This document shows, piece after piece, positions 53,290 to 64,000 of a DNA stretch of 64,000 nucleotides (the first letter of the stretch is position 1; each line of letters starts with the position of its first letter). A model generated the notes under the pieces. The model was not told the origin of the DNA and did not search any database. It saw nothing but the letters and a program-made list of their open reading frames with translations. The translations under genes were made by a program, and so were the position numbers. Source of the stretch: Mesorhizobium sp. GbtcB19 (GTDB taxonomy: Bacteria > Pseudomonadota > Alphaproteobacteria > Rhizobiales > Rhizobiaceae); assembly GCF_019091085.1 (NCBI RefSeq), contig NZ_JAGXJY010000014.1, forward strand, positions 1-64,000. Reading direction: 5' to 3'.

Positions 53290-53475
53290 GTCGTCATCCT
53301 AGGGCGGAGCAGGAGCGAAGCTCCGTCGCGGAGACCCTAGGATCCATTCCGTTCCCTCAGTCGAAGAGCGCAGCGAAGCAGAATTCTGGACCGTCGCAAT
53401 ACTTCGGCGTCACGGCATGGATCCTAGGGTCTACGCTGCGTCGCTCCGCTCCTTGCTCCGCCCTAGGATGACGAA
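53290..53475. repeat. Dispersed palindromic repeat, family B, copy 8
   Basis: A full copy: CGTCATCCTAGGGCGGAGCA, CCTAGGATCCATTCCGTTCC, GCAGAATTCTGGACCGTCGC, CACGGCATGGATCCTAGGG and CTTGCTCCGCCCTAGGATGA. It fills much of the 348-bp stretch between ppsR and maf; no gene is visible there. Confidence 0.85.
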
Positions 53476-53570
53476 GCGATGGGCGTTTCGGCCAATCTTC
53501 AACGCATGCGATCCGTCGTGACTTTTCGATCTCCTCGGCGGCGGTAGCTCTTCATCCCGCTTGGTCTCCG

Positions 53571-54392
53571 TTAGCGCGTCTTGCCCCGCAGGGCAACGAT
53601 CGCCGCCGCCGTTTCCTCGATCGAGCGGCGGCTGACGTCGATCATCGGCCAGCCATGCCGCGTGCAGAGCTGGCGCGCATAGGCAAGCTCCTCGTTGATC
53701 GCGGCGCGGTCGATATAGTCGGTCGGCACGAAGGCGGCGCTGTTGCCGAGGATACGGTTTTGCCGGACATGCGAGATGCGCTCGGCCGTGGCGATGAGGC
53801 CGACGACCAATGGCTTCTTGGCCTCGACCAGGCTTTCGGGCAGCGGCACGCCGAGCACGATCGGGATGTTGGCGGTCTTGTGGCCGCGGTTGGCGAGATA
53901 GATGCTGGTCGGCGTCTTCGAGGTGCGCGAGATGCCGATCAGCACGATGTCGGCATCGTCCATATTGGCCGGCAGTTGGCCGTCATCATGCTCCATGGTG
54001 AAGTTCAGCGCATCGATGCGGCGGAAATATTCGGCATCGAGCACATGCTGGGCGCCGACGCGGCGGCCGGCCGGCGTGCCGAGATAGGACTGGAAGACGG
54101 CAAGCACCGGCTCCAGCACCGAGACGCAAGGCAGGCCCATGGCGGCGCAGCGTTCGTCGATCGAGCGCGCGAGCTTCTGGTCGACCACCGTATAGAGGAT
54201 GATGCCGGGCTCCTCCTCGATGTCCTCGAAGACCTTGGCGACCTGCTTTTCGGTGCGGATCAGCGGATAGATGTGCTCGATGGCGCGCGCGTCCTTGTAT
54301 TGCGCGGACGCCGCGCGGCCGGCCGCCAGCAGCGTTTCGCCGGTGGCGTCGGAGATCAGGTGCAGGTGGAAGAAGCTCTGAGGTTTGTTCAC
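53571..54392 (-). CDS. ppsR: Pyruvate, phosphate dikinase/PEP synthase regulatory protein (DUF299)
   Basis: This 273-residue bifunctional ADP-dependent kinase and phosphorylase regulates pyruvate,phosphate or water dikinase. Conserved segments are [20 protein letters not shown], the P-loop-like [18 protein letters not shown], and [10 protein letters not shown]. The GTG start at 54392 gives the exact family length; upstream in-frame sequence runs into the origin region and has no similarity. The start codon lies within a DnaA-box-like 9-mer. This is the RP001-type gene that borders oriC in many alphaproteobacteria. Confidence 0.93.
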
Positions 54393-54794
54393 AGGGGATG
54401 GGTCCAGGCTGTGGGCAATTGTGGACAAGGCTGGATGGGAAGGCCTTGGATCAAAAGCTGAGTGTATCAGATGGCCGGTTGTCCACAATTCGCCCCGCTG
54501 TAGGCTTTGTCGCGGCGCTGGGGACAAAACTGGGGATCAACTTTTCTCGGCCGGTTTCATCCACAGCGCGGCGTTCGGGACGGGAAAGCCAAGCTTTTGA
54601 CTCCAAAGCCTGAATCCGCGTCGTCCCCAGATCCCTCCAAATTGCGAAAGTGAGTACGCGACAATATGCTGACTGGCCTTTTCGGCCCGCAGGCTGGACA
54701 GGTCGCAACCATCACAACCAACAGACTCTTAGAATCAGAAGACTCTTTTAAAATAGATATTTGATTTAAGAGAACTGGAGAGGGCAGGCGCTGG
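54393..54794. other. oriC: Putative chromosomal replication origin (oriC)
   Basis: This 402-bp gene-free region lies between divergent ppsR and hemE, the standard alphaproteobacterial origin site. DnaA-box-like 9-mers are TTGTTCACA at 54385, TTGTCCACA on the minus strand at 54420-54428 and on the plus strand at 54479-54487, and TCATCCACA at 54557. Weaker relatives TTGTCCCCA and TTGATCCCC lie around 54516-54545. An AT-rich stretch (54741-54770, TTTTAAAATAGATATTTGAT) could be the unwinding element. Five GANTC sites cluster at 54599-54745. Confidence 0.8.
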
Positions 54795-55823
54795 ATGGCT
54801 GGGAAACGGATGATGCTGGACGTCCTCAAGGGCGAGACGGTTTCACCGCCGCCGCTCTGGATGATGCGTCAGGCGGGCCGCTATCTTCCCGAGTATAGAG
54901 AGACAAGGAAGCGGGCCGGCTCCTTCCTCGATCTCTGCTACGATCCGGACCTTGCCGTCGAGGTGACGCTGCAGCCGATCGAGCGCTTCGGCTTCGACGC
55001 CTCGATCCTGTTCTCCGACATCCTCGTCGTGCCCAATGCCCTGGGGCGTGAGGTTCGTTTCGAAGAGGGCCGCGGACCGATCCTGAAGCCGATCACGGCC
55101 GCCGAGATCGCGGCGCTGGACGGCGATATGTTTCACGTGAATCTCGAACCGGTCTACGAGACCGTGCGCCGGTTGCGCGCGAAACTGCCGGGTGAGACGA
55201 CGCTGATCGGCTTCTGCGGCGCGCCCTGGACTGTGGCGACTTATATGATTGCTGGACACGGCACACCGGATCAGGGCCCGGCCCGGCTTTTCGCCTATCG
55301 CGAGCCCGAGGCCTTCGCGCAGCTCTTGAAGACGCTGGCCGATCATTCGGCCGCCTATCTCATCCGCCAGATCGAAGCCGGCGCCGACGTGGTGCAGATT
55401 TTCGATTCCTGGTCCGGCGTATTGGACGAACCGTCCTTCGAGGCTTTCTGCGTCGAGCCGGTGGCCGAGATCGTCCGGCGGGTGAAGGCCGTGCACCCTG
55501 ACGTGCCGGTGATCGGTTTTCCAAAGGGCGCCGGCGAGCGCTATCGCGATTACCGGAGGAAGACCGGCATAACCGGTCTCGGGCTGGACTGGACAGTGCC
55601 CTTGTCGATGGCAAGGGAGCTGCAGCGCGACGGGGCGGTGCAAGGCAATCTCGATCCGCTGCGTCTGGTCGCCGGCGGCAAGGCGCTGGCTGATGGCGTC
55701 GATTCTATTCTGAAGACTTTGGGTGGCGGGCCTCTGATCTTCAATCTCGGCCACGGCATCACGCCGGAAACGCCGGTGGCGCATGTCGAGGCGATGGTGA
55801 GAATGGTGAGGAGCCACCGATGA
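54795..55823 (+). CDS. hemE: Uroporphyrinogen decarboxylase
   Basis: This 342-residue cytosolic enzyme decarboxylates uroporphyrinogen III to coproporphyrinogen III in heme synthesis. Signature 1 [17 protein letters not shown] lies at about 19-35, with [20 protein letters not shown] and [20 protein letters not shown] following. GGAGAGGG precedes the ATG. It borders the origin as in Caulobacter and relatives. A parS-like 16-mer with two mismatches lies inside its coding sequence at 55129. Its stop overlaps hemJ (ATGA). Confidence 0.96.
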
Positions 55824-56356
55824 GCGATGCAGGCAATGACAACAGCACCGGTCAGGCGATGAAACGCATGGCGATCGGCATTGTCGTTCTCGTGGTGGCG
55901 ACCGCGCTGCTCTATTTCGTGGCGGGCGACGGTTTCTATTCCTGGGCCAAGGCGATCCACGTCGTCGCCGTCATCGCCTGGATGGCGGGCATGCTCTATC
56001 TGCCGCGGCTCTTCGTCTATCACGTCGACGCCGAGAAGGGGTCGGTGCAGTCGGAGACCTTCAAGGTGATGGAACGCCGGCTTCTGCGGGGGATCATCAA
56101 TCCGGCGATGATCGTGACCTGGGTGTTCGGCCTCTGGCTGGCCTGGAAAGGCTTTGGCTTCCAGGGCGGCTGGCTGCACACCAAGATCGCCCTGGTGCTC
56201 GTCCTGTCGGGCTTGCATGGCTACCTCGCCGGCGCGGTGCGGAAATTTGCCGAGGACAAGAACGAAAAACCGGCAAGGCACTGGCGGATCGTCAACGAGA
56301 TCCCCACATTGCTGATGATCGCCATCGTCATCCTGGTCATCGTGAAGCCGTTCTAG
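55820..56356 (+). CDS. hemJ: Protoporphyrinogen oxidase HemJ
   Basis: This 178-residue inner-membrane protein has four predicted membrane segments. The HemJ signature is [26 protein letters not shown] near 50-75, whose His may bind heme. It oxidises protoporphyrinogen IX in bacteria lacking HemG/HemY. Translation is coupled to hemE by ATGA. Unlike in several relatives, no hemH lies between hemE and hemJ. Confidence 0.94.
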
Positions 56357-56360
56357 ACGA

Positions 56361-56405
56361 GGAGCATGATCTCCTCCGAAAATCGCTTCGGGATCACGCT
56401 TTAGG
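56361..56405. repeat. Short palindrome, family C variant
   Basis: GGAGCATGATCTCCTCCGAA and CTTCGGGATCACGCTTTAGG resemble the 42.4-kb variant. It starts four bases after the hemJ stop, consistent with a transcript-end role. Confidence 0.55.
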
Positions 56406-56469
56406 CTTCCCTCCGATCCAGCAAGAAGGCCCAGCAAAAGGCGGCTTGCTCTTTCAGACGACCGACGAT

Positions 56470-56579
56470 ACAAGACGGGTCTTCCTTCCCGTCATGCGCC
56501 GCCCCTTTACTCGCTTTCGGCCGCGCCCGGCATTTGTCGTATCCAGCCGATTTTTCTCCCCAAAGCCTACCCAGAGTCT
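56470..56579 (+). promoter_or_regulatory. C-rich, G-poor leader of rho, candidate rut-type autoregulatory segment
   Basis: Across these 110 bases I count 43 C and 22 G, with runs such as TCTTCCTTCCCG and TTTTTCTCCCCAAAG. C-over-G segments are typical Rho-utilisation sites, and rho genes are commonly autoregulated by premature Rho-dependent termination in the leader. Confidence 0.4.
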
Positions 56580-56584
56580 ATCTA

Positions 56585-57850
<1,266 letters not shown>

Positions 57851-57865
57851 TTGGTGGAGTGCTTC

Positions 57866-58014
57866 CCCTTCTCCCCTTGTGGGAGAAGGTGTCGCCGAAG
57901 GCGACGGATGAGGGGTGCTCCAGGGAAAGCCGACGTTCCACTCCGCTGGAACACCCCTCATCCGTCTCGGCGCTATCGCGCCGATCCACCTTCTCCCACA
58001 GGGGGAGAAGGAAG
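57866..58014. repeat. 149-bp palindrome between rho and the opposing gene
   Basis: CCTTCTCCCCTTGTGGGAGA on the left and CTTCTCCCACAGGGGGAGAAGG on the right are inverted, and inner arms GATGAGGGGTGCTCCA and TGGAACACCCCTCATC extend the pairing almost to the centre. It lies between convergent stop codons and could terminate transcription from both sides. Confidence 0.8.
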
Positions 58015-58017
58015 GCG

Positions 58018-60033
58018 CTATCGCCGCAACAACTTCTCCAATTCTTCTGGCTCCGTGACCACCGGCAGGCATACCTGCCCGGTGCAAAACCAGGCGCCTG
58101 CCCTGTCCGTTGGCGGCAGCACGCCGCCCGGTAGGAGCGCTCGATTCGCCTCCGAACCAATCGGAACGACGATGTCGACCCGGCGCGGATCGGGATTCCG
58201 ATTCGCAACCGGAACAAGACTTGGATTCTCTACTGAGTCGACCAGAACAAGTTTCAGCGGTTCGAGCGCCTGCGCGCAGGCGTTGACGATGCCGGCCTGG
58301 CCATAGGCCTGTTGCGCGGTGCGCCCCATGGCATGCTCGGCGGTCGCCCAGGCCTTTTCCCAGAGTTGGAGATCGCCGGTGAGCGATGACAGCCGCACCA
58401 GCGCCTCGACGATCTGGCTGGTGGCCGAGGGGATGGCCTCGTCGACATCGCCGCGGATGCGGATCGGCACGTCGCCGCTGTCCGAGGCCGTCAGCCAGTA
58501 GCCGGTCTTTTCGCTATCCAGGTGCCAGCGGTCGAGTTCGTCGATGAAATGTCTCGCCTGTGCCGAATAGGCCTGATCGCCGGTCGCTTCGAAGAGCGCG
58601 ATCGCCGTGTTGGTCATGGCGGCATAGTCGCTGGACAGCGCCGGGAAAAGCTTCTTGGCGCCGAGCATGGAATGTGGCATCCGGCCGCCCTCACTGGCCC
58701 CGACAATATGAGCGAAGGCTTTTGCCGCGGCGTCGACCCAGTCACGCCTGCCAAGCGAACGGCCGGCCTCAGCGAGCGCCGTAATCATCAGCCCGTTCCA
58801 GTCGGTGAGCGCCTTGGCATCGCGGCCAGGCCTGATCCGGTGCTCGCGGGCGGCCAGGAGTTTTGCCTTCATAGGCGCGAGCTGCGTGTAGTCGGCGATG
58901 CCCTGAGCTTGCTGCGTTTCGTGCTGACGGATGATCGGCTTGCCTTCCCAGCCATGCGGCGCGGCGAGCTCGAAGTAGCGGAAGAAGGTCGAAGCATCGC
59001 CGCCGAACGCACTTTCGACCTCTTCGCGGCTCCACGTATAAAAGAGCCCCTCCTCGCCGTCGCTGTCGGCATCGAGGCTGGCGGCGAAGGCGCCACCATC
59101 GACCAACATTTCGCGCAGCAGCCAGGCGACGGTCTCTTCGATTCGTACCCGGAACAAGCCGTTGCCCGTAGCCGAGTAGGCCCAGTTGCACAGACGGACC
59201 AGCTGGGCGTTGTCGTAGAGCATCTTTTCGAAATGCGGCACCAGCCATTCGGCGTCGGTGGAATAGCGGCTGAGGCCGCCGCCGACATGATCGTAGATGC
59301 CGCCGGCGAGCATTTTTTCCAGGCTGGTGAGCACGGCGTCGCGATGGGCGGCCTGGCCGTCGCGCAGCCAGGACAGCCACAAGGTGTGCATGAAGGGCGC
59401 ATTGGGGAATTTCGGCGCGCCGCGCAAACCGCCGAGATCGCGGTCGATCATGCCGTCGATGCGCCCGGCGAGATCGGCCAAGGTGTCGCGGTCGAGCACC
59501 GCCTTGCCCTTGGCGCCGGCAAGCCGCTGCTCGACATGTGCGGTCAGCCCGTCGGCGCTTTCGGCGAGGCTCTGCTGCTTTTCGCGCCAGGCCTTGTCGA
59601 CCGCTTCAAGAACCTGGATGAAACCCGGCCGGCCGTAGCGCGCCTCGCGTGGGAAATAGGTGCCGCCCCAGAAAGGCTTGCCGTCGGGCGTCAGGAACAT
59701 GGTCAACGGCCAGCCGCCCTGCTCGCCCATGGCATGGAGCGCGGCCATATAGATCTGGTCGATGTCGGGCCGCTCCTCGCGATCGACCTTGATATTCACG
59801 TAGAGCCGGTTCATGACGGCCGCCACGGCGTCGTTCTCAAAACTTTCATGCGCCATGACATGGCACCAGTGGCAGGCGGCATAACCGATGGAAAGCAGGA
59901 TCGGCCGGCCCAGTTCCCTGGCTTCGGCAAGGGCGGCAGGCGACCAGCCCCGCCAATGCACGGGATTGTCGCTGTGCTGCTGCAGATAGGGGCTGGCCTC
60001 TTCGGCAAGCAGGTTACGCGCGGGCAAGGTCAC
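58018..60033 (-). CDS. Thioredoxin-domain/six-hairpin glycosidase-like protein (YyaL/SPATA20 family)
   Basis: This 671-residue protein has an N-terminal thioredoxin-like domain (about 1-165) with YAACHWCHVMAHESFEND, where CHWC (54-57) is the redox motif, and GGWPLTMFLTPDGKPFWGGT. A long alpha/alpha-barrel-like region follows, with ASLDADSDGEEGLFYTWSREE and ALTDWNGLMITALAEAGR. Its molecular role is not established. The start is GTG at 60033 and its ribosome-binding site is weak. It opposes the surrounding rightward rho and mnmE genes. Confidence 0.92.
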   Translation of the reverse strand: MTLPARNLLAEEASPYLQQHSDNPVHWRGWSPAALAEARELGRPILLSIGYAACHWCHVMAHESFENDAVAAVMNRLYVNIKVDREERPDIDQIYMAALHAMGEQGGWPLTMFLTPDGKPFWGGTYFPREARYGRPGFIQVLEAVDKAWREKQQSLAESADGLTAHVEQRLAGAKGKAVLDRDTLADLAGRIDGMIDRDLGGLRGAPKFPNAPFMHTLWLSWLRDGQAAHRDAVLTSLEKMLAGGIYDHVGGGLSRYSTDAEWLVPHFEKMLYDNAQLVRLCNWAYSATGNGLFRVRIEETVAWLLREMLVDGGAFAASLDADSDGEEGLFYTWSREEVESAFGGDASTFFRYFELAAPHGWEGKPIIRQHETQQAQGIADYTQLAPMKAKLLAAREHRIRPGRDAKALTDWNGLMITALAEAGRSLGRRDWVDAAAKAFAHIVGASEGGRMPHSMLGAKKLFPALSSDYAAMTNTAIALFEATGDQAYSAQARHFIDELDRWHLDSEKTGYWLTASDSGDVPIRIRGDVDEAIPSATSQIVEALVRLSSLTGDLQLWEKAWATAEHAMGRTAQQAYGQAGIVNACAQALEPLKLVLVDSVENPSLVPVANRNPDPRRVDIVVPIGSEANRALLPGGVLPPTDRAGAWFCTGQVCLPVVTEPEELEKLLRR

Positions 60034-60142
60034 GATGAGCGGCTCGGCATTTGATTGGCAAAGACTGGGGCACGATGCCGAGACGTGTGAGCGGTTTCGG
60101 CCGTGCTTTATCTTAATCTAGGCGGTTCGGCAGGTCCGGCAA

Positions 60143-61465
60143 ATGGTTTCCCCAATGGCTTCGAAGGATTCGATCGTAGCGCTGTCGAGCGGCCGCCTGC
60201 CCGCCGGCATTGCCGTCATCCGCATTTCCGGCCCGACGACTCGATTCGTTGTCGAAACAATTGCCGGGCCGGTTAAGGATCGTTTAACCACGTTGCGCAG
60301 GCTCAAGGCGGTGGACGGCTCGGTCATCGATCACGGCGTTGTTCTGTTCTTTCCAGGTCCCGGCAGCTTCACCGGCGAGGATGTTGCCGAATTCCAGGTC
60401 CATGGCAGCCGTGCCGTCGCGGCCAAGGTGCTGCAGACGATCACCAGCTTCGAAGGCGTCAGGCATGCGGAGCCCGGCGAGTTCACGAGGCGCGCCTTTC
60501 TCAATGGCAGGCTGGATCTGGTCGAAACCGAGGCGCTTGCCGATCTGGTCAATGCCGAGACCGAGGCGCAGCGCCGTTTCGCGCTCAGCAATGCGGAAGG
60601 GGCGCAGAGCGAGCTTTATTCGAGCTGGCGGCGCCGGCTGATCCACGCCCGGGCGATGATCGAAGCGGAGATAGACTTCGCCGATGAGGACGACGTTCCG
60701 GGCTCCGTTTCGGAGGCGGTCTGGTCCGACGTGGCGGCGATGATCGGCGAGATCGAGCGGCATGTCGAAGGGTTCAAGGCGGCGGAGATCATCCGCGACG
60801 GTTTTGAGGTCGTCATCCTGGGCGCGCCGAACGCGGGCAAGTCCAGCCTGTTCAACGCCTTGGCCAGGCGCGAGGCGGCCATCGTCACCGACGAGCCTGG
60901 CACGACGCGCGACCTGCTCGAGGTCGCTATGGACCTGAACGGGCTGAAGGTGCGCATCGTCGACACCGCCGGCCTGCGCGACGCCGCGGGCAAGGTCGAA
61001 TCGATCGGCATCGAGAGGGCGCGCGCCAAGGCGGGAGCGACGGATCTGGTGCTGCTCCTCGAGGATATGGCCGACCCGGTGGCCGTGAGCGATGTCCCAA
61101 ATGAGGTTCCTCTGCTGAGGATCGGGACGAAGTCGGACATTGCTCGGGCCGGCGCGGGTGACGGCTACGATCTGGTGATCTCTACCAAGGTTGGTGCGGG
61201 GATCGAGCGCCTTCTCAAAGAGATTGGAGACCGCGCCGCTGCGGCGGTGAGGAATGCAGGTGACGTCCTGCCGTCGAGATTGCGTCACGTCGAGCTTCTT
61301 AGCGAGACGCGGGATTTTCTGAGGGCGGCGTTGTCGGGGCAGAGCCAGGAATTGCGCGCCGAGGAATTGCGGCTCGCGGCGGATCGTCTTGGCCGCATCA
61401 TTGGCGCGGTCGACGTCGAGGACCTGCTCGACGTCATCTTCTCGCAGTTCTGCATTGGTAAGTGA
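60143..61465 (+). CDS. mnmE: tRNA modification GTPase MnmE (TrmE)
   Basis: This 440-residue GTPase installs, with MnmG, the cmnm5 group on wobble uridines. The N-terminal folate-binding domain (about 5-120) is followed by helical and G domains: G1 GAPNAGKSSLF (228-238), the switch I region TDEPGTTRDLL and G3 DTAGLRDAAGK. The C-terminal CIGK motif, essential for modification, is intact. A second possible start is the ATG at 60155. Its stop codon lies within a parS-like site. Confidence 0.96.
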   Translation: MVSPMASKDSIVALSSGRLPAGIAVIRISGPTTRFVVETIAGPVKDRLTTLRRLKAVDGSVIDHGVVLFFPGPGSFTGEDVAEFQVHGSRAVAAKVLQTITSFEGVRHAEPGEFTRRAFLNGRLDLVETEALADLVNAETEAQRRFALSNAEGAQSELYSSWRRRLIHARAMIEAEIDFADEDDVPGSVSEAVWSDVAAMIGEIERHVEGFKAAEIIRDGFEVVILGAPNAGKSSLFNALARREAAIVTDEPGTTRDLLEVAMDLNGLKVRIVDTAGLRDAAGKVESIGIERARAKAGATDLVLLLEDMADPVAVSDVPNEVPLLRIGTKSDIARAGAGDGYDLVISTKVGAGIERLLKEIGDRAAAAVRNAGDVLPSRLRHVELLSETRDFLRAALSGQSQELRAEELRLAADRLGRIIGAVDVEDLLDVIFSQFCIGK

Positions 61466-61478
61466 TTCACGTGAAACA
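61463..61478. other. parS: parS-like site 1
   Basis: TGATTCACGTGAAACA matches the alphaproteobacterial parS consensus (TGTTTCACGTGAAACA) at 15 of 16 positions. It overlaps the mnmE stop codon. ParB-CTP clamps would load here for chromosome segregation. Confidence 0.75.
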
Positions 61479-61496
61479 CGGGGCGACCCTCCGCAC

Positions 61497-61512
61497 TGAC
61501 TCACGTGAAACA
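61497..61512. other. parS: parS-like site 2
   Basis: TGACTCACGTGAAACA matches the parS consensus at 14 of 16 positions, with an intact right half TCACGTGAAACA. It lies 34 bp from site 1, suggesting an array. Confidence 0.6.
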
Positions 61513-61534
61513 CTCTGTGGAATACGCCGATTTA

Positions 61535-61550
61535 TGTTTCACGTGAAACG
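61535..61550. other. parS: parS site 3 (perfect 14-bp palindrome)
   Basis: TGTTTCACGTGAAACG contains the perfect palindrome GTTTCACGTGAAAC at 61536-61549 and differs from the consensus at one outer base. It is 78 bp before the mnmG start. Confidence 0.85.
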
Positions 61551-61627
61551 ATACGGGTGTTCGTCCTTGACAGGGAGGTGGCGCGGGGACATGTGTCGGG
61601 CAATCTCTGAAAGCGGATTCTTGGATA

Positions 61628-63502
61628 ATGACCAGTCACTATGATGTGGTGGTGGTGGGCGGCGGCCATGCCGGATGCGAGGCGGCAAGTGCTGCCGCGC
61701 GCGCCGGCGCCAGGACGGCGCTGGTGACGCTGCGTTTCGACACGATCGGCGTCATGTCCTGCAATCCTGCGATTGGCGGTCTCGGCAAGGGACATCTCGT
61801 GCGTGAGATCGACGCGATGGATGGGCTGATGGGACGCATCGCCGACGCCGCCGGCATCCAGTTCCGCCTGCTCAATCGCCGCAAGGGTCCGGCCGTGCGC
61901 GGTCCGCGCACGCAAGCCGACCGCAAGCTCTATCGGCTTGCCATGCAGGAAGCGATTCGGCAGCAGAACGATCTTGACGTTATCGAGGGCGAGGTTCTCG
62001 ATTTCGAAATCGCAGATGGGCGCGTTGCAGCGGTGCTGGTTTCAGGTGACCGGCGGCTCGCTTGCGGCGCCGTCGTGCTGACCACCGGCACCTTCCTGCG
62101 CGGACTGATCCATATCGGCGAGAAGAAGATTGTCGCCGGCCGCATGAACGAGCAGGCGAGCATGGGCCTGTCGGCGACGATGGCGCGCGCAGGCTTCAAG
62201 CTCGGGCGGCTGAAGACCGGAACGCCCCCTCGCCTCGATGGCCGTACCATCGACTGGGCGTCGCTGGAAAGCCAGGCGGCGGACGAGGATCCAGTGCCGT
62301 TCTCGCTGATGACCGATAGGATCGCCAATCCGCAGATCCATTGCGGCATCACTCGCACCATGCCGGCGACGCATGAGCTGATCCGCGCCAATCTCGGCCG
62401 CTCGGCGATGTATTCCGGTTCGATCGAAGGCGTCGGCCCGCGCTACTGCCCGTCGATCGAGGACAAGATCGTCAAGTTCGGCGACCGTGAAGGCCACCAG
62501 ATCTTCCTGGAGCCGGAAGGGCTCGTTGACGACACGGTCTACCCGAACGGCATCTCGACCTCGCTGCCCGAGGACGTGCAGCTCGCGATCCTGAAGACCA
62601 TTCCCGGGCTGGAAAAGGCAACGATGCTGCAGCCGGGCTACGCGATCGAATACGACCATGTCGATCCGCGCGAATTGAAGACGACGCTGGAGACGAAGCG
62701 CGTCGATGGCCTGTTCCTTGCCGGACAGATCAACGGTACGACCGGCTACGAAGAGGCTGGCGCGCAAGGCCTGCTTGCCGGCATCAACGCCGCGCGCAAG
62801 GCGGCGGGCGACGACGATGTCGTGCTCAGCCGCACCGAAGCCTATATCGGCGTGATGGTCGATGATCTCACCAGCCGCGGCATCGCCGAGCCCTATCGCA
62901 TGTTCACTTCGCGCGCCGAGTTCCGGCTTTCGCTGCGCGCCGACAATGCTGACGAGCGGCTGACGCCACTCGCCGAGAAGCTCGGCATTGTATCGCCGGA
63001 GCGGTTGCAGCGGTTCGGCGATATGGCACAGAAGCTCGACGTCGCCCGCGCGCTGGCCAAATCCGTCACCTGGACGCCGAATGAAGCGGCACGGCATGGG
63101 CTGGAGATCAACAAGGACGGCGTGCGCCGCTCGGCCTATGAGCTGCTGGCGCATCCGGGCGTAGACATGGCTTGGCTCAGCCGCGTCGAGCCACGCTTTG
63201 CCACGCTCGACAGCAAGACGGCGGAGCGTCTTGAAACGGAAGCGAAATATTCTGTCTACCTGGATCGACAGCAGGCCGACGTCGCGCAGATCAGGCATGA
63301 AGAAGCGCGGCTTATCCCGGAAGCCATCGATTTCTCGGATGTGCCCGGCCTCTCGAACGAGCTGAAGCAAAAGATGAAGCTGCGCCAGCCGCGTTCGATA
63401 GCCGACGCGCAGCGCATGGAAGGCATGACGCCGGCGGCGCTGGCGATCATCGTCGCGCATGTCCGCAATGCCGAGCTTGCCGCGCGAAGGTCTGTGGCGT
63501 GA
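61628..63502 (+). CDS. mnmG: tRNA uridine 5-carboxymethylaminomethyl modification enzyme MnmG (GidA)
   Basis: This 624-residue FAD enzyme forms the MnmE-MnmG complex that modifies wobble U34. The FAD motif [20 protein letters not shown] lies near 7-26, followed by [20 protein letters not shown]. GidA signatures include [18 protein letters not shown] and [17 protein letters not shown], and the C-terminal helical domain ends RNAELAARR. Length is standard. The stop overlaps the rsmG GTG by three bases, and three parS-like sites lie upstream. Confidence 0.97.
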
Positions 63503-64000
63503 GCGCGGATGCCTGGGCGGACCTGCAAAAAGCAGCAGGTCCGGTTTCACGTGAAACATTCGAGCGGCTGCAGGCCTTCGAACAGCTGTTCCTGAAATGG
63601 AATCGCAGCATCAATCTGGCGGCGCCGTCGACACTGGACGATGTCTGGCGCCGTCACATCTTGGACAGCGCCCAGCTCGCGCGAATCGCGCCCGCCGCCA
63701 CACGCTGGGTCGACCTTGGTTCCGGCGGCGGCTTTCCCGGATTGGTGCTTGGTTTTCTGCTTAAAGAGCGTTCCGGCGCGTCGATCGATCTGGTCGAGAG
63801 CAACCGCAAGAAAGCTTCGTTCCTGCAATCCGTCATCGGTCAGTTCGCTTTGCCGGCGCGCGTCGTGGCGAAGCGCATCGGCGACAGCTATGCGCTTGTT
63901 TCGACACCGGAAATCGTTACGGCGAGGGCGCTTGCGGCGTTGCCGGATCTGCTCGATCTCGCGGCGCCGTGGCTGACCACAGGGGCGCGCGCGCTGTTCC
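63499..64000 (+). CDS. rsmG: 16S rRNA (guanine(527)-N7)-methyltransferase RsmG (partial, runs off window)
   Basis: The first 167 residues of RsmG (GidB) are present; the 3' end lies beyond the window. The enzyme methylates G527 of 16S rRNA with SAM; loss confers low-level streptomycin resistance. [20 protein letters not shown] and the SAM motif [19 protein letters not shown] are clear, followed by SRKKASFLQ-like [12 protein letters not shown]. The GTG start overlaps the mnmG stop. Codons 15-20 (PVSRET) are written by a parS palindrome. Confidence 0.95.
63544..63557. other. parS: parS site 4 inside rsmG
   Basis: GTTTCACGTGAAAC is a perfect palindrome; with flanks the 16-mer is GGTTTCACGTGAAACA, one mismatch to the consensus. 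It encodes Val-Ser-Arg-Glu-Thr in the RsmG N-terminus, so protein and partition-site constraints overlap. Confidence 0.85.

Follow-up and report, generated by a model that had tools for sequence, protein, structure and literature searches.

A very probable hemE-type chromosomal origin in a draft Mesorhizobium genome

Among the described relatives of the locus presented here is Cori, the origin of Caulobacter crescentus, which lies between hemE and a COG1806 gene and carries five DnaA boxes, five CtrA sites and one IHF site (PMC1914354). The hemE/ppsR-type gene order is described as an origin in Caulobacter, and for Rickettsia and Mesorhizobium loti it has been drawn as one (PMC1914354, PMC2443382). 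In particular, a figure of the Azorhizobium genome paper depicts the origin gene cluster of M. loti, Brucella and other rhizobia, and the authors of that work confirmed the Azorhizobium origin by the polarity of GGGNAGGG (PMC2443382). The origin of Sinorhizobium meliloti, in the published account, lacks CtrA motifs and is unbound by CtrA (PMC4433202). A literature search by title and abstract returned no paper devoted to the Mesorhizobium origin, a result that is not proof of absence because subscription papers were mostly out of reach.

The locus considered here belongs to Mesorhizobium sp. GbtcB19, whose draft genome amounts to 6.72 Mb in 687 contigs; the window, i.e., the whole stretch of DNA that was analysed, is bases 1-64,000 of contig 46 (160 kb). 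An earlier note on this DNA had placed a likely chromosomal origin in a 402-bp gap between divergent ppsR and hemE genes. The gap is indeed there, bounded by the GTG start codon of ppsR at 54392 (minus strand) and the ATG of hemE at 54795, and the proposal is well supported: the gap is very probably the oriC of the main chromosome, of the DnaA-dependent, hemE type. This call rests on the cluster of DnaA boxes, the parS cluster with parAB, the polarity of four relatives, the conservation of box positions and the published gene order. What the sequences show directly are the boxes, the AT-rich element, parAB with the parS-like sites, the conservation of these features and the polarity switch in the relatives; the origin is predicted from them.

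With regard to the flanking genes, the name hemE given in the earlier note holds at equivalog level (Table 1), while ppsR is a loose name, because the protein falls below the cut-off of the NCBIfam PpsR equivalog (137 vs 350 bits); it does pass the NCBIfam subfamily "pyruvate, phosphate dikinase/PEP synthase regulator" (339 vs 225 bits). Profiles name the genes around the gap as a PF03618 kinase/pyrophosphorylase, hemE, hemJ, rho, mnmE and mnmG, and an Rfam search of 53400-55900 gave no match. The gap beside hemE with a COG1806/DUF299 gene opposite, the ancestral form of this arrangement, had been regarded as the established alphaproteobacterial oriC neighbourhood, and rightly so. Both genes occur in 98 of 143 genomes of the class (own included), and in 88 of these 98 they are divergent within 5 kb (86 within 1.5 kb); in the other ten they lie on different contigs (nine) or far apart on one contig (one).

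Table 1. Positions of the predicted origin and its associated features in the 64-kb window.
Feature	Position	Strand	Remarks
Predicted oriC, gap between divergent ppsR-like gene and hemE	54393..54794		402 bp
ppsR-like flanking gene (PF03618, COG1806/DUF299-type)	53571..54392	-	profile match
hemE flanking gene	54795..55823	+	TIGR01464 equivalog, 417 bits vs cut-off 303
DnaA box TTGTTCACA	54385..54393	+	overlaps first 8 nt of ppsR
Weak DnaA-like box TTGCCCACA	54410..54418	-	10 bp from box A
DnaA box A, TTGTCCACA	54420..54428	-	
DnaA box B, TTGTCCACA	54479..54487	+	
Weak off-consensus box TTGTCCCCA	54519..54527	-	conserved
Box C, TCATCCACA	54557..54565	+	
Two GANTC sites	54599..54616 (54599, 54612)	.	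kept in 73 and 67 of 81
Three-GANTC cluster beside AT-rich element	54724..54745 (54724, 54732, 54741)	.	kept in 81, 79, 78 of 81
AT-rich element, candidate DNA unwinding element	54747..54776	.	sequence composition
parS-like site inside hemE	55129..55144	.	2 mismatches
parS-like site	61463..61478	.	1 mismatch
parS-like site	61497..61512	.	2 mismatches
parS-like site	61535..61550	.	1 mismatch
parS-like site	63543..63558	.	1 mismatch

The DnaA-box-like motifs listed in the earlier note were all recovered: two identical copies of TTGTCCACA in opposite orientation (boxes A and B, with 50 bp between them and 59 bp from start to start), TTGTTCACA at the ppsR start, and TCATCCACA (box C). To these can be added the two minus-strand boxes at 54410 and 54519. 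Is this more than chance would produce? In the window, TTGTCCACA occurs only as these two copies, against 0.14 expected, and a count of two was reached in 1 of 100 shuffles. When one mismatch to TTATCCACA is allowed, the window holds five sites against 2.67 expected, and 16 of 100 shuffles reach five; this total is unremarkable, so that the unusual feature is not the number but the clustering, three of the five sites falling in the gap. The same emerges when TTRTYCACA is sought on both strands and up to one mismatch is accepted: of the 11 sites of the window, six lie in the gap or across its left edge, the window figure being 0.07 per 402 bp, and no 402-bp stretch at a distance of more than 800 bp has more than one. 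The gap contains the DnaA-box cluster expected of a hemE-type origin. Against the call, strict boxes are few (two, plus TTGTTCACA).

On the scale of the genome, TTRTCCACA is not enriched (23 sites in the draft vs 38 for the reversed control), and consequently only its clustering counts. Boxes A and B are the sole pair of such sites within 1 kb in the draft. The four complete Mesorhizobium genomes contain 29, 33, 29 and 41 sites, and in each of them the sole pair within 1 kb adjoins hemE, with starts exactly 59 bp apart. A separate observation concerns the strands of this motif, which are strongly biased in G003 (NC_014923; 24 forward, 5 reverse) and near balance in the three other complete genomes (16/13, 14/19 and 19/22).

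How well are these positions kept? Close relatives were represented by the best 80 of 318 ppsR-like loci, 77 of them titled Mesorhizobium and three bearing broader names; these were aligned with the window, and none of the 81 rows was dropped. Box B is identical in all 81. Box A reads TTATCCACA in 51 rows, TTGTCCACA in 29 and TTTTCCACA in one, and its variation stays within the DnaA consensus in 80. The box at the ppsR start is TTGTTCACA in 79 rows and TTATTCACA in two, a conservation to which coding constraint may contribute, and TTGTCCCCA at 54519 is also kept in 79. In box C the first three letters vary, while the eight commonest variants, which account for 79 of the 81 rows, have the TCCACA core. 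Off-consensus boxes ending in CCCCA instead of CCACA recur and are conserved (54519-54527 and 54621-54629), and are possibly low-affinity sites. Two further blocks of the gap, 54657-54676 and 54695-54742, are strongly conserved and have no DnaA boxes; it is possible that they belong to the hemE promoter or are sites for another initiation protein.

The family was covered by 61 genomes, own included, of which 44 have a ppsR-like gene; loci were taken from the best 30 of these 44, and 26 of the 30 could be anchored on hemE (four could not). A slot was counted as filled when a box lay within 3 bp of its position in the window. In the 25 anchored genera other than the window's own, the slots at 54479, 54385, 54420, 54519, 54410 and 54557 are filled in 23, 19, 14, 12, 6 and 2 cases, respectively, against a chance level (mean over all offsets) of 0.7-1.0. 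For the class, the best 30 matches were fetched and one unpaired locus was left out, leaving 29 gaps, own included. In these the TCCACA core averages 2.07 per gap vs 0.21 expected from the flank, a strict box is present in 16 and absent in 13, and six are without even a relaxed box. The two genomes of the same order and another family (G055 and G145) have zero and one relaxed boxes and no strict one. As counted by slot within the family, the positions of the putative boxes are, accordingly, a family-level feature.

Seventeen of the family genomes (loci L266-L282) gave no ppsR-like gene, whereas hemE turned up in all 61. In 15 of them Maf is located 438-630 nt upstream of hemE instead, and in the other two neither Maf nor AroE was seen in the 2 kb read. 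All 17 have at least one near-consensus box within 480 nt, 12 of them two or more, and in ten a plus-strand box stands at -345 to -305, vs 1.7 for bins elsewhere. As boxes are kept upstream of hemE in these genera, the predicted origin gap appears to outlive its ppsR neighbour.

Another component expected of a hemE-type origin is an AT-rich element, and the one that the earlier note had seen beside hemE is confirmed as a candidate for unwinding. No 30-mer of the 64 kb has a higher A+T content than the one from 54747 (25 of 30 A/T), which shares the top value, and the 15 richest all start within 54731-54749. The distance from anchor to anchor is 469-474 bp in 66 of the 80 relatives and longer in 14, and in all 14 the extra DNA sits just after the AT-rich element (window position 54775), before hemE. 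It measures 91-94 bp in 11 relatives, and 114, 345 and 355 bp in three. This common insertion point suggests that the functional core of the putative origin ends at about 54775. The 91-94-bp insert (L003, L004, L006, L007, L012, L015, L021, L023, L024, L036 and L043) looks palindromic by eye; L056, L060 and L073 have different, longer inserts at the same site.

GANTC sites, the target of CcrM-type methylation, are present five times in the gap. A first-order simulation gives a mean of 1.7 and a P of 0.024 for five or more, and the density of the gap is equalled once in the window, around 57823-58544; for these reasons the count alone is modest evidence. The dense stretch there, 58143-58235, is as rich in GANTC as the gap. 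Conservation of the sites in the gap is stronger evidence than their number (Table 1): in the third site of the cluster beside the AT-rich element (54741), for example, N is C, A or T in 34, 24 and 20 rows. In the family, a zone of 60 nt at the same place contains two or more GANTC in 24 of 26 genera, own included. In the corresponding zone of the genera without ppsR, at least one is found in 15 of 17, and at least two in 9 of 17. Less expected than the rest of the locus is that the GANTC cluster keeps its distance from hemE, and does so in most of the genera in which no ppsR was found as well. As for the enzyme, a protein with a RAMA domain, which we take to mark CcrM, is encoded in the window's genome and in G003; of 14 control genomes, Caulobacter alone gives a match.

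Partitioning sites also point to this region. The whole draft genome was scanned for palindromic parS sites with at most two mismatches to TGTTTCACGTGAAACA, and its five parS-like sites are all on contig 46, at 55129-63558, while the reversed control gives one; in the window 0.06 would be expected from shuffles, even with up to three mismatches. The parA and parB genes follow just beyond the window (contig 46, 64137-64955 and 65022-65915), so that parS-like sites and parAB are found together near the gap. The four complete relatives have 4, 4, 5 and 4 parS-like sites, all about 10 kb or less from the homologous gap, and reversed controls give 0, 0, 0 and 2.

A whole-chromosome skew, the check that the earlier note had proposed, is not computable for a draft of 687 contigs. 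Within the window, GC skew does not change sign at the gap, being positive to its left (0.015) as well as to its right (0.031). Cumulative G-C reaches its minimum at base 631, and the FtsK-orienting motif, GGGNAGGG, occurs only 3 times, too few for its polarity to be informative. Because the contigs cannot be put in order and no sign change is seen in the window, four complete Mesorhizobium chromosomes were sampled instead, by 20 stretches of 20 kb each, evenly spaced from the gap, at a resolution of ∼0.3-0.4 Mb. On the rising half, the counts of GGGNAGGG (+/-) are 20/2 in G003, 27/1 in G002, 29/11 in G004 and 23/3 in G001; on the other half they are 0/18, 5/20, 3/19 and 6/17. The totals are 99 (+) and 17 (-) against 14 (+) and 74 (-), and the permutation p is ≤0.0008 in all four. 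For GC skew, which is weak in these relatives (in three of the four, one half hardly departs from zero), p is 0.005 in G003, 0.0004 in G002, 0.049 in G004 and 0.0004 in G001. By both measures and in all four chromosomes, the origin offset that fits best differs from the gap by no more than one sampling step. The switch in polarity is located there to within 0.3-0.4 Mb, on the evidence of relatives only, and at that resolution the proposed check turns out in favour of the call. Contiguous 20-kb stretches, spanning 380 kb in G003 and 400 kb in G001, had too much noise to single out the gap, and the local cumulative minimum falls to its left, at -178 kb and -125 kb, respectively. Given these distances, skew supports the region only and not the gap itself.

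Could the origin lie elsewhere, with the gap being a promoter region regulated by DnaA? The dnaA gene is one candidate; oriC adjoins it in many bacteria, and DnaA boxes are known to regulate promoters as well. The local skew, which does not pick out the exact gap, leaves room for such a reading, and both G003 and the window's genome have single strict boxes at a distance of 6-9 kb from dnaA; within the ∼3-kb loci around dnaA in three genomes, by contrast, TTRTCCACA is absent. In the two complete relatives G003 and G002, dnaA (near positions 1400 and 1,640,900) is 0.91 and 0.82 Mb away from the gap, and in both the gap beats it on skew contrast (0.186 vs 0.035 in G003, 0.214 vs 0.109 in G002) and on motif contrast (36 vs 14 and 41 vs 33). 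As the parS clusters are also located at the gap, an origin at dnaA or in another place is highly improbable.

Even less credible is that the gap is an ordinary divergent promoter region, in which the boxes would be there by chance and the conservation would come from the ppsR and hemE promoters. The promoters of both genes must indeed sit in the gap, and GANTC is common in alphaproteobacterial promoters; the number of sites in the gap is only modestly unusual and is equalled elsewhere in the window. What such a region does not account for is the excess of near-consensus boxes over the window average, nor the fact that the variants of box A keep to the DnaA consensus in nearly all close relatives. 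Moreover, the genera without ppsR retain boxes, and mostly the GANTC zone too, upstream of hemE.

If the gap is the origin, its operation may be pictured as follows. DnaA would bind at 54385, 54420 and 54479, with weaker binding to the three off-consensus boxes (54410, 54519 and 54557). The resulting complex would then open the AT-rich element beside hemE, the order of opening being the presumed one, and two forks would depart in opposite directions when the origin fires in this strain. The new origins would subsequently be captured by ParB at the parS-like sites, 0.3-8.8 kb to the right.

What might the GANTC sites do? Methylation beside the candidate unwinding element probably has one of two roles, to signal that the origin has been replicated or to act in the hemE promoter, and the cluster could equally be there for the promoter. 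A more daring idea is that in Rhizobiaceae the position-fixed cluster is selected for CcrM methylation, and that the hemimethylated DNA left behind by the fork influences re-initiation at a DnaA-dependent origin. Such control would be the GANTC equivalent of Dam/SeqA, in contrast to the situation in Caulobacter, and we consider it unlikely. In Caulobacter, as reported, the origin contains GANTC sites and CcrM is dispensable for the control of initiation (PMC3973325). In Agrobacterium, according to the account of CcrM depletion, duplication of the DnaA-dependent ori1 proceeds without obvious change and that of ori2 is delayed (PMC11514494). Both results count against methylation control of the Mesorhizobium origin.

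What is gained from this analysis? An origin can be assigned in a draft Mesorhizobium genome, together with a box-level map that is valid across close relatives and partly across the family, for use in replication studies and in genome ordering. The conserved GANTC cluster also makes a role of CcrM in initiation at rhizobial DnaA origins directly testable. The find itself is an ordinary one, because the origin neighbourhood of M. loti is already in print and the group is known to have its origin at this place; what the box-level map and the position-fixed GANTC cluster add to this is modest.

Compared with the systems described at the outset, the gap resembles Caulobacter Cori in its flanking genes, its several DnaA boxes, its AT-rich stretch and its GANTC sites (PMC1914354, PMC3973325). 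However, Cori is described with CtrA sites and an IHF site (PMC1914354), whereas the Mesorhizobium gap contains no TTAA-N7-TTAA, and thus not the CtrA pattern of the Caulobacter subtype. A strict form of the IHF consensus finds no match in the gap or anywhere in the window; IHF sites are loose. The S. meliloti origin, as described, shares the absence of CtrA motifs with the Mesorhizobium gap (PMC4433202). With the M. loti origin region, as drawn, the likeness is at the level of the gene cluster (PMC2443382).
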